DNA from: Flavobacterium araucananum
GTDB taxonomy: Bacteria > Bacteroidota > Bacteroidia > Flavobacteriales > Flavobacteriaceae
Length of the DNA stretch: 64,000 nucleotides
Direction of reading: 5' to 3'
Assembly (NCBI RefSeq): GCF_002222055.1
Contig: NZ_MUGS01000016.1
Coordinates: 1-64,000 of the forward strand
The notes under the pieces are model-generated. The model was not told the origin of the DNA, did no database searches, and saw nothing but the letters and a program-made list of their open reading frames with translations. Within the stretch, counting starts at the first letter, position 1. Each line of letters begins with the position of its first letter. Below, one piece after another: positions 18,423 through 21,821 of this stretch. A program made the translations under genes and the position numbers.

Positions 18423-19457
18423 ATGTATAAATTGATTATTCGCCCGATACTTTTTTGGTTTGATCCGGAAGAAGTACATTATTTTACTTTTTCATTTGTT
18501 AAATTCATTTCAAAAATACCAGGAGTTTCATCAATTATAAAATCGATTTACGAAGTAAAAGATGCACGTTTGGAACGTGAGGTTTTTGGCATTAAATTTA
18601 AAAACCCTGTTGGTCTTGCTGCGGGATTTGATAAAGATGCTAAGTTGTACAAGGAACTTTCTGATTTTGGTTTTGGCTTTATAGAAATAGGAACCGTAAC
18701 ACCGGTTGGTCAGGAAGGGAATCCAAAAAAACGTTTGTTCAGGCTAAAAGAAGATCAGGCAATTATTAACCGAATGGGTTTTAATAATGGAGGTGTTCTG
18801 GAAGCTGTAGAACGTTTAAAAAAGAATTCGGGAGTTTTGATTGGTGGAAATATTGGAAAAAACAAAGTGACGCCAAACGAAAATGCAGTTGACGATTATA
18901 TCATTTGTTTTGATGCTTTATTTGATCATGTCGATTATTTTGTGGTTAATGTAAGTTCTCCAAATACACCAAATTTAAGAGCTTTGCAGGATAAAGAACC
19001 TCTAACGGCTTTGTTGCAAACGTTGCAAAATAAAAATGTTGAGAAACAAAAAACAAGCACTCAAAAAGTAAAGCCAATTCTTTTAAAAATTGCTCCGGAT
19101 CTTACAGACGAGCAATTATTGGATATTATTGATATTATAAAAACAACACAAATTGCGGGTGTAATTGCTACCAATACGACAATTTCAAGAGAGGGATTGC
19201 AATCTGAAAACCAATCTGAAATGGGAGGATTGTCAGGAAAACCATTGACAAAACGATCAACAGAAGTGATTCGTTTTCTCTCTGAAAAAAGCAATAAAGC
19301 ATTCCCTATTATTGGAGTAGGGGGAATACATTCTGCAGATGATGCCATTGAGAAGTTAAATGCCGGAGCAAGTTTAGTACAATTGTATACCGGATTTATT
19401 TACGAAGGCCCGGCTTTGATAAAAGCCATCAACAAAAAGGTTTTAAAGCAATCGTAA
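18423..19457 (+). CDS. pyrD: dihydroorotate dehydrogenase (quinone), class 2
   Basis: A 344-residue membrane-associated flavoenzyme that oxidises dihydroorotate to orotate with quinone in pyrimidine synthesis. The N-terminal helices ([23 protein letters not shown]) form the class 2 quinone tunnel. [37 protein letters not shown] (catalytic Ser region) and [11 protein letters not shown] are the family signatures. I start at the ATG 18423 rather than a TTG 30 bp upstream. The gene converges with the DUF3307 gene, overlapping it by 15 bp. Confidence 0.94.
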
Positions 19458-20159
19458 AAGCAACTCCTGAACGATTAAGCCTGTAATAATGGCCGTCCCA
19501 AAACTGATTAACGTACCAATTAAAACATACTCGGTAAGTTTTCTGTCTTTGGCTTCTTTTAAATCTCCAAATCTAAAAATAGATTTAGCAGCCAATAAAA
19601 AGCCTATAGCTTCAAAATGTCCCGTTAAGATAAAACAAAACACAAATAAACGCTCTAATATGCCAATGTAATTTCCTGCATTGGCAAGCGAATTGTCACT
19701 ATTACTGTTTTGACTTTCAGGAGTCCAGATAGAAATTATGGTTTTAATAAAAATAGAGGTTGGTTTAGTAATAAACAAGATACCGGTTATTAAAACCCAA
19801 AGCGTATTGTCAAACCACCCAAAGTTTATAGGTTCGCCTTTATAGAGTAATACGATTTCGATTAAAATTAAAAGATGTGCAATTTGGTCTGCAATAAACC
19901 AGGTGCGTTTTGTTTTCTTCTGCTGAAAATTTAGTTTGATCAAATCGATAATTCCATGCGTTACAGCAATCAAAACTGCATAAGGTATAAACTGAATTTC
20001 TCCCACTAAAATTGCTGCCAGAACACCATGCAAAAGAATATGAAGGTATAAATAAATACTTTTATGTTTCCTGGCTTCTTTATGGGTTACCCAAGAGTTG
20101 GGTTGTCCTGTAAAATCGCCTAATAAATGTGCTAAAAGTAGTTTTATGAATAAAATCAT
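19443..20159 (-). CDS. DUF3307 integral membrane protein
   Basis: A 238-residue inner-membrane protein with about six hydrophobic helices. Paired polar residues are spaced one helical turn apart inside or next to helices: His11/Asp15 (AHLLGDF), His40/His44 (HILLH), His68/Asp72 (THGIID) and Asp91/His95 (DQIAH). The pattern suggests an intramembrane metal site, as in membrane metal-dependent hydrolases of the DUF457/YdjM kind; this is inference. The start overlaps the satD stop by four bases, so the two are translationally coupled. The 3' end overlaps the end of pyrD. Confidence 0.85.
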
Positions 20160-20770
20160 GGCGTTGTAAGTTGTTTTATTTGTGTTCTGTAATAACGGTC
20201 TAAATTGAGTATTAAATCAAATTGTGCCCGTTTTTGTCTTCGGCTTACAGCAGCCTGATTAATGCCTAGTTTTTGTCCCAACTCTTCTTGCGATAAAGTA
20301 GGATTTTCTATTGCAGCTGCTACAAACTCTGCCGGTTGTGCCAGCCAATTGTCCATAAAAGTCAGGGCCAATTGCATCATTAAATTCATTTGTTCATCAA
20401 TATAGACGTTACCCGTTCTGAGTGCCAGAGTTATTTTTTGTTTTTTTAGAGTTTCAAAAAGTTCTCCAGAATGAATAAAAGCAGAACCATTACTTTCGGA
20501 TATTTTTTCGGCATTGTGTGTTTTATCACCAATACCAATACTCATTCTTGCATCCAGTTTTATAGCTTTTAGATGTGCCTTTATCAAAATAGCAGACCAT
20601 AAAGCTTCTTCGGGATTTTTAATCTCGATCTGGAACTCATCACCTCTGTAAACTTCCCATTGGCTTGGTGTTGCTCCAAACGCAGATAAGATTTTTTTCA
20701 AATCCTCTACCCAGTCTTTCGATTTTTGTTGTCTTGAGCCAATGATGTCGCCTGTAATTATGCTTGTCAT
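20156..20770 (-). CDS. SatD family regulator
   Basis: A 204-residue cytosolic protein. The N-terminal domain (about 1-125) has TGDIIGSR at 6-13, RGDEFQ at 42-47 and MSIGIGD at 76-82, reminiscent of the metal-binding and substrate loops of class III cyclases/GGDEF domains. The C-terminus carries a helix-turn-helix at about 159-182 (LSQEELGQKLGINQAAVSRRQ). SatD is named from an acid-tolerance operon of Streptococcus mutans; its biochemistry is not established to my knowledge. It leads a two-gene unit with DUF3307. Three matched palindromes lie directly upstream and probably bind this HTH. Confidence 0.85.
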   Translation of the reverse strand: MTSIITGDIIGSRQQKSKDWVEDLKKILSAFGATPSQWEVYRGDEFQIEIKNPEEALWSAILIKAHLKAIKLDARMSIGIGDKTHNAEKISESNGSAFIHSGELFETLKKQKITLALRTGNVYIDEQMNLMMQLALTFMDNWLAQPAEFVAAAIENPTLSQEELGQKLGINQAAVSRRQKRAQFDLILNLDRYYRTQIKQLTTP

Positions 20771-20804
20771 AATTCAAATATAATTAAAAATAAATTAAGT
20801 TCTA

Positions 20805-20880
20805 TATTACAAATATATGTAATATTTCTTATTATTACACTTTTGTGTAATATTGTCTATTATTACAGTATTGTGTAATA
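20805..20880. promoter_or_regulatory. triple phased operator TATTACA-N6-TGTAATA
   Basis: Three 20-bp palindromes occupy 20805-20824, 20833-20852 and 20861-20880. Every half-site is an exact TATTACA or TGTAATA, every spacer is six bases, and every unit starts 28 bp after the previous one. The spacers (AATATA, CTTTTG, GTATTG) differ, so conservation is limited to the half-sites. They lie between satD (start 20770, minus) and HMG-CoA lyase (start 20955, plus). Autoregulation by SatD, with possible effect on the divergent gene, is the simplest reading. Confidence 0.8.
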
Positions 20881-20954: not shown

Positions 20955-21821
20955 TTGAATAAAGAAATCAAGATTATCGAATGCCCCCGTGATGCTATGC
21001 AAGGTATCAAAACTTTTATTCCTACTAAAAACAAGGTTTCTTATATACAGGCTTTGCTTAGAGTGGGTTTTGATACGATTGACTTTGGTAGTTTTGTATC
21101 TCCAAAAGCGATTCCGCAAATGCAGGATACGGCAGAGGTTCTGGCACAACTTGATTTATCGCAAACCACAAGCAAATTGCTGGCTATAATTGCCAATACG
21201 CAAGGTGCCGCAGTAGCATCAGAGCATGAACCTATTCGCTATTTAGGATTTCCTTTTTCGATATCTGAGAATTTTCAGATGCGAAATACCCATAAAACAA
21301 TTGCTGAATCTTTGGTAACACTTGAAGAAATTCTCGAAATTGCTGATAAGAAAAATAAAGAAGTCGTAACCTATCTTTCAATGGGATTCGGGAATCCGTA
21401 TGGAGATCCATGGAATATCGAGATTGTTGGCGAGTGGACCGAAAAATTAGCCGGAATGGGCGTAAAGATTTTATCACTTTCTGATACCGTGGGCAGTTCT
21501 ACACCAGAAGTAATTACGTATCTTTTTTCAAATTTAATTCCAAAATACCCGCAAATAGAGTTTGGAGCACATTTGCATACAACACCCAATAGTTGGTTCG
21601 AAAAAATAGATGCCGCTCACAAAGCAGGTTGTACCCGTTTTGATGGCGCTATCCAGGGATTTGGAGGATGCCCGATGGCAACAGACAAACTTACCGGAAA
21701 TATGCCTACAGAAAAGTTAATCTCATATTTTACATCCAATAAAAAAACAACCGGTCTAAACTCTTTAAGTTTTGAAAGTGCTTATAATGAAGCTTCAAAG
21801 TTGTTTGGTAAATTTCACTAA
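20955..21821 (+). CDS. mvaB: hydroxymethylglutaryl-CoA lyase
   Basis: A 288-residue TIM-barrel enzyme splitting HMG-CoA into acetoacetate and acetyl-CoA, the final step of leucine breakdown. ECPRDAMQG at 9-17 corresponds to the family EVGPRDGLQ. The metal ligands sit in AHLHTTPN, and the catalytic Cys in GFGGCPMA. The start codon is TTG at 20955: an in-frame stop lies only six bases upstream, and the next Met is past the conserved metal-binding Asp, so TTG is forced. It is divergent from satD across the triple operator. Confidence 0.9.
   Translation: MNKEIKIIECPRDAMQGIKTFIPTKNKVSYIQALLRVGFDTIDFGSFVSPKAIPQMQDTAEVLAQLDLSQTTSKLLAIIANTQGAAVASEHEPIRYLGFPFSISENFQMRNTHKTIAESLVTLEEILEIADKKNKEVVTYLSMGFGNPYGDPWNIEIVGEWTEKLAGMGVKILSLSDTVGSSTPEVITYLFSNLIPKYPQIEFGAHLHTTPNSWFEKIDAAHKAGCTRFDGAIQGFGGCPMATDKLTGNMPTEKLISYFTSNKKTTGLNSLSFESAYNEASKLFGKFH

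Follow-up and report, generated by a model that had tools for sequence, protein, structure and literature searches.

The array of repeats between satD and a divergent HMG-CoA-lyase-like gene in the window (the whole 64-kb stretch of DNA analysed here) is very probably the operator of SatD itself, by which SatD would autoregulate its own gene together with that of a membrane partner. This reading is drawn from the array, its linkage to satD homologues in other genomes, and the covariation of its bases with the recognition helix of SatD, all computed here; the linkage and the covariation together make SatD the very probable binder of the ladder and regulator of its own operon. The features concerned are the following.

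19443..20159, minus strand: satD partner, membrane protein of 238 aa, DUF3307 (PF11750) at its N terminus
20156..20770, minus strand: satD, 204 aa, predicted cyclase/GGDEF-like domain and C-terminal HTH (PF16264, E 1.3e-6; predicted fold)
20228..20257, minus strand: SatD recognition helix, residues 172-181, in which residues 173, 174 and 177 covary with half-site bases 4, 5 and 6
20393..20770, minus strand: SatD residues 1-126, predicted nucleotidyl-cyclase/GGDEF/palm-like domain with conserved D8 and D44
20775..20782, minus strand: second TATATTTG, an alternative -7-like element 4 nt ahead of the satD ATG (from sequence)
20805..20880, no strand: predicted SatD operator ladder, six hexamers TATTAC/GTAATA alternating at a 14-bp step (from sequence and from the same layout upstream of satD homologues)
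20805..20824, no strand: palindrome 1, closest to satD, half-sites 20805-20810 and 20819-20824
20810..20817, minus strand: TATATTTG, a candidate Bacteroidota -7 element inside palindrome 1, toward satD (from sequence)
20833..20852, no strand: palindrome 2, half-sites 20833-20838 and 20847-20852
20861..20880, no strand: palindrome 3, half-sites 20861-20866 and 20875-20880
20955..21821, plus strand: HMG-CoA-lyase-like gene, divergent neighbour

The repeat array upstream of satD

The array was initially described as three TATTACA-N6-TGTAATA palindromes in 28-bp register with differing spacers, and inspection of the sequence agreed: all three palindromes are free of mismatches, lie exactly 28 bp apart and have unlike spacers (AATATA, CTTTTG and GTATTG). 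The finer unit is an alternating 14-bp ladder rather than the 28-bp palindrome only, as TATTAC and GTAATA hexamers start by turns at 20805, 20819, 20833, 20847, 20861 and 20875 with a uniform 14-bp step. Similarly, the 7-base half-site of the preliminary description is exact in the window, while base 7 is variable among relatives (judged by eye) and the common core is a hexamer. None of 40 dinucleotide shuffles of the window produced a ladder of five or more half-sites alternating at 14 bp, and the real window holds one, with six half-sites.

When the 5.9-Mb genome was searched for exact TATTACA-N6-TGTAATA, four places were obtained, namely the three of the array and C85:37-56. By eye, the latter lies inside an open frame, near its start; the frame resembles that of an EamA-type transporter, and the site is taken as a chance occurrence. 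The pattern of three TATTAC half-sites in ladder order, with up to three mismatches, matched 37 times in the genome compared with 42 for the reversed control pattern, and the only mismatch-free matches were the four within the array at 20805-20880; thus no second TATTAC ladder above the reversed-control level was present elsewhere in the 5.9-Mb genome. Single TATTAC-N8-GTAATA sites were found at five places (three in the array, C39:34753 and C85:37) and the reversed control at three. TATTAC ladders are therefore not scattered genome-wide, an outcome that had been named in advance as a refutation, and the array accompanies satD, as the following comparison of loci indicates.

Distribution of ladders upstream of satD homologues

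A search upstream of satD homologues in other Flavobacteriaceae had been proposed as a check, and the sites are present there and far outside the genus: ladders of the same layout precede satD homologues across Bacteroidota, and also those in plasmid records of Vibrio and Pseudoalteromonas. Within the genus, SatD homologues were detected in 68 of 150 genomes. Chains of like palindromes with a period of 28 lie upstream in 56 of the 69 genus loci (all 69 match rows were used), and 45 of these chains contain at least three units. None of the other periods between 16 and 44 exceeded 4 of 69, and the coding-region control gave 1 of 69 at period 28. Each genus locus repeats its own half-site, and these sequences vary by lineage. 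A named set, consisting of the best 80 of 594 relatives, had period 28 in 75 of its 80 loci.

A search with the PF16264 profile gave matches in 65 of 296 Bacteroidota genomes and in 0 of 14 control genomes, and the former figure is a lower bound, as the SatD of the window itself escaped this search; it aligns with the profile over residues 5-188 at E 1.3e-6, and its 28.6 bits fall just short of the gathering cut-off of 29 bits. For the Bacteroidota PF16264 set, 70 of 73 rows were taken, leaving out G422, G410 and the fragment G348. In the phylum set of 69 loci, period 28 was found in 13 and period 29 in 23, with at most 2 at other periods. Loci that pass PF16264, such as L085, are also among those found with a profile built from relatives of the window SatD (A1). 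The class-level search detected satD homologues in 50 of 395 genomes (52 rows, of which four were left out as three duplicate places and one fragment). In addition, seven plasmid records carry SatD homologues. By script, the plasmid loci have six half-sites in Vibrio lentus, four in both Pseudoalteromonas and four in Segatella, and fall under the threshold of four in both Salinivibrio (three) and Sphingomonas (two); the Vibrio and Pseudoalteromonas ladders are clear by eye.

The pooled loci L005-L277 number 273, and 272 remained after removal of L077, which has no SatD match. Among these, 261 were eligible, the conditions being a SatD of near full length and no less than 150 nt of upstream sequence; some repeat one place, and they were clustered into 115 representatives at 70% identity and 57 at 50%. 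With a ladder defined as at least four half-sites at a step of 13-15 with at most one mismatch each, ladders were found in 84 of 115 representatives (mean 2.5 and maximum 6 in ten shuffle rounds, 1 in the coding control) and in 43 of 57 (mean 0.7 and maximum 1 in ten shuffle rounds, 0 in the satD coding control), counts that are not fully independent because the loci share ancestry. A fixed step of 14 accounted for 53 of 115 and 19 of 57 representatives, and any other step from 8 to 23 for at most one; certain lineages take 14- and 15-bp steps by turns. The half-site sequence is lineage-specific (TATTAC, TATCGG, TATAAG, TATCTG, ATTGGC, GAAACA and others) and the step of 14 or 14/15 bp is constant.

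Below the threshold are 31 of the 115 representatives at 70% identity, 22 with three half-sites and nine with two; three are common by chance (shuffles gave a mean of 29.4 of 115 with three or more). By eye, several of these 31 have diverged arrays and others none. A subset of L086-L106, distant relatives, has GAAACA/GATACA half-sites whose steps alternate between 14 and 15, and the helix there is of the KNRxQIWKRR type. The locus L262 carries 20 half-sites with 14/15 alternation and L250 carries 15 at 14 bp, with very similar spacers that suggest recent duplication of units.

Half-site bases change with the SatD recognition helix

Covariation was assessed on 72 of the 84 ladder-bearing representatives, the 12 whose profile scores did not exceed 85 being left out. 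The partial Mantel correlation between the half-site and SatD residues 170-181, given the N-terminal domain, was 0.516 (permutation P = 0.001), and the best 12-residue window within residues 1-158 reached 0.194. Changes were then placed on a tree made from SatD residues 1-126 alone. Changes at base 5 and residue 174 coincided in 13 of 20 cases (expected 3.7, P = 4.6e-7), those at base 6 and residue 177 in 11 of 19 (expected 3.7, P = 7.2e-5), and those at base 4 and residue 173 in 7 of 14 (expected 1.9, P = 4.9e-4), with each of the three residues at the top of the columns scored for its base. The P values are given uncorrected, and set against about two hundred columns the result is strong for base 5, modest for base 6 and not significant alone for base 4. 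In mutual information without tree correction, D23 of the N-terminal domain ties with R177 for first place with base 4, and other columns outside the helix score too.

The pairs can be read as a code. Residue 174 goes with base 5 as A with A (19/22), S with G (21/25), T with G (10/12) and N with T (7/10), and residue 177 with base 6 as R with C (13/14), K with C (12/13), E with G (10/12), Q with G (10/12) and G with T (7/7). The window SatD, with A174 and R177 and the half-site TATTAC, agrees with this code. The half-sites were oriented partly by a TAT-first rule, which biases the share of TAT by construction, and bases 4-6 are those tested. That protein contacts stand behind the constant half-sites had been suggested from the unlike spacers, and this covariation is the best evidence for it. 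On these computational grounds, SatD appears to recognise its own promoter array.

Domains and predicted fold of SatD

In the AlphaFold model of SatD (mean pLDDT 93.9, 47 sequences), residues 1-126 form a beta-alpha domain and the C-terminal part is helical. This C-terminal part contains the HTH that the preliminary description had assigned to SatD, to which a predicted cyclase-like N-terminal domain is now added. Residues 1-126 match the folds of adenylyl cyclases, GGDEF domains, GTP cyclohydrolase III and polymerase palms with moderate scores. Foldseek gave the Ma1120 adenylyl cyclase at E 7.3e-4 (TM 0.40/0.49), and VIA gave GTP cyclohydrolase III (Z 10.2), the DosC GGDEF domain (Z 9.4) and a light-regulated adenylyl cyclase (Z 9.2), where rows within 1 are tied and the values are only moderately above the 7-8 usual for models without a clear match. 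The sequence identity of the N-terminal domain to these structures is 7-20%. Of 261 homologues, 260 have D8, 260 have D44 and all have G43; in the model, D8 at the end of strand 1 and D44 in the hairpin of strands 2-3 look like metal-ligand aspartates, an equivalence made by motif and topology. By eye, the motifs TGDIIGSR, RGDEF and RMSIGIG resemble those of cyclases and GGDEF domains. A nucleotide signal through the N-terminal domain is plausible.

Solved structures searched with the SatD sequence gave weak matches only (E 0.1 or worse, mostly HTH proteins), and the viral structure library gave no match at E 0.001. A scan of viral contigs by the SatD alignment returned 13 pattern matches, none of them a relative, and tblastn against phage records at E 0.01 found no match for SatD or for the partner. 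In the PADLOC defence library SatD had one match at E 0.019 (residues 151-180) and the partner had none, so a defence role is not claimed.

The membrane partner and the satD operon

Of the 260 loci whose sequence extends far enough, 259 have a partner-like gene directly downstream of satD; the profile behind this count was iterated on those downstream frames themselves and could have drifted. The start of the partner and the stop of satD overlap by 4 nt in the window, and this is the most frequent overlap among the loci (152 of 257). The two genes are probably co-translated, and probably regulated together as a satD-partner operon. PF11750 was found in the window partner and in two of four other partners scanned, and DUF3307 is annotated in all five of the annotated plasmid loci. 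The partner is most conserved C-terminally, outside the PF11750 match: G166, E169, R170, K192, R196, Y211, G215 and S219 occur in at least 96% of 111 partners, short ones included. Partners under 130 aa make up 16 of the 111, and the one of these run through Pfam had no DUF3307 match; for two (46 and 69 aa) the starts are perhaps misplaced. Short partners of about 105 aa seem little more than the conserved C-terminal region. PHROG 2470, a membrane protein, matches the N-terminal part of the partner. The partner model (pLDDT 84.0, pTM 0.54) had its best PDB match at E 0.75, which is no evidence for a new fold.

The satD-DUF3307 pair of L225 lies on a Vibrio lentus plasmid classed as conjugative, a hint that the module can pass between cells. 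On the Sphingomonas insulae plasmid, the pair has next to it (L227:3072-3575) a gene whose annotation is Pycsar system effector family, a possible defence neighbourhood.

The consensus of the Bacteroidota promoter -7 element is TAnnTTTG. Of 84 representatives, 33 carry such an element close to where the ladder ends on the satD side; anchors placed at random upstream gave a mean of 5.05. In the window and, by eye, in many close relatives it lies inside the last palindrome, and in some loci beyond the ladder. The ladder ends at most 80 nt from the start codon in 81 of 84 representatives, with a median distance of 23.5 nt (IQR 8.75-40).

Proposed mechanism and alternative explanations

We propose that SatD monomers bind the hexamer half-sites through the C-terminal HTH, so that adjacent molecules would face each other, with orientation alternating every 14 bp, and a run of SatD would cover the promoter region of satD and its membrane partner. 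That the step is fixed and the sites are many suggests cooperative assembly on the DNA, in line with the cooperative autoregulation proposed in the preliminary description. As DNA has about 10.5 bp per turn, a 14-bp step corresponds to a turn of about 120 degrees, and SatD neighbours would wind round the DNA rather than share one face. Bound SatD would most likely repress its own operon by blocking the promoter, because the satD-side end of the ladder in the window contains the probable -7 element. The N-terminal cyclase/GGDEF-like domain most likely binds a nucleotide that would alter DNA binding, and such a domain makes a nucleotide the prime suspect for relief of repression. The overlapping genes, self-control, patchy occurrence and plasmid carriage would also fit an antitoxin-toxin-like pair.

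The array might belong to the divergent HMG-CoA lyase gene or serve another regulator, with SatD merely a neighbour. All 103 TATTAC-type ladder loci that have 600 nt or more upstream do show an HMG-CoA lyase match within 1.2 kb, a uniformity which indicates that this clade kept one chromosomal position for the module. Outside the clade, satD ladders stand without such a neighbour in 69 of 99 cases at 70% clustering and 39 of 53 at 50% (the neighbour count used loci with at least 600 nt upstream, 112/115 and 54/57), and half-site changes coincide with changes in the SatD recognition helix; we regard this explanation as very unlikely, and the lyase-like gene is probably not the owner of the array. 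It is scarcely credible that the repeats are a neutral tandem-repeat expansion or RNA hairpins, as the half-site bases covary with the HTH. Units do duplicate, given that same-phase spacers have a likeness of 0.64 compared with 0.42 predicted from composition, and the 20 and 15 half-sites of L262 and L250 would fit expansion as well. The likeness of half-sites is nevertheless higher than that of spacers, at 0.92, partly by construction since the search allows at most one mismatch. A -7-like element in or beyond the last palindrome would place most of the array outside the satD transcript, which speaks against hairpins, and neither an Rfam family nor a tRNA was found in the 64-kb window.

The direction of control is judged here from the position of the promoter. 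SatD bound upstream could act as an activator, recruiting RNA polymerase to the operon either always or in a single ligand state only, and to this we give a small but appreciable chance. Multi-site arrays can activate or repress, the distance from ladder to start codon is variable, and some loci have the -7-like element beyond the ladder. Where this element lies inside the last palindrome, by contrast, bound protein would exclude the polymerase, and repression by SatD is preferred for this reason; with TAnnTTTG near the ladder end in only those 33 of 84 representatives, repression over activation is not secured. We also put forward, as a long shot, that SatD is a DNA-assembled signalling enzyme: the ladder would pair the cyclase-like domains, a nucleotide signal would be made or released and passed to the membrane partner, and operator length would tune both expression and signal. 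On this view, satD and its partner would form a self-limiting module resembling an antitoxin-toxin pair, with SatD as an antitoxin of cyclase fold.

Comparison with known systems

The window SatD has a near whole-length profile relationship to the SatD family PF16264, with a score just under the cut-off. The satD passages of PMC10326533 and PMC11323703 link SatD to acid tolerance, and according to those of PMC11323703 satD of S. pyogenes is accessory, being present in 178 of 249 genomes, yet essential where present. The satD passages of PMC11323703, PMC10326533 and PMC5786311 deal with acid tolerance, essentiality and the lysozyme response, and an operator is not described in them. An accessory yet essential gene, as reported for S. 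pyogenes in PMC11323703, would be the expectation if SatD restrains a harmful partner. The present analysis provides a predicted operator for the SatD family, a residue-to-base code that can be read from sequence, and a predicted cyclase-like domain with metal-ligand-like residues. Furthermore, satD and its membrane partner are seen as a two-gene module of Bacteroidota and of proteobacterial plasmid records. These results make an obscure module accessible to specific questions, such as the nucleotide bound, the relief of self-control and the role of the partner.

The nearest architectural parallel is found in regulators of the PucR/CdaR type, which like the SatD model combine a GGDEF-fold domain with a C-terminal HTH; one of them, BAD_0249 (3onq), ranks 39 in the Foldseek list for SatD. 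A Pfam scan of SatD at E 0.001 gave no match to the PucR HTH (PF13556) or to the GGDEF-like domain (PF17853). According to the part of PMC11617747 concerned with it, MabR, of the PucR group, has a GGDEF-like domain and an HTH, with the catalytic motif missing from the former, whereas SatD retains GD at 43-44 and D8. Class III nucleotidyl cyclases and GGDEF diguanylate cyclases share the predicted fold of SatD residues 1-126; compared with them, the modelled SatD domain is small and is fused to an HTH. The repressors of MetJ boxes and Fur arrays read, as is proposed for SatD on its ladder, adjacent sites of fixed spacing by one protein. In contrast to these, SatD half-sites alternate in orientation at 14 (or 14/15) bp, and form runs of up to 20 with a lineage-specific sequence.
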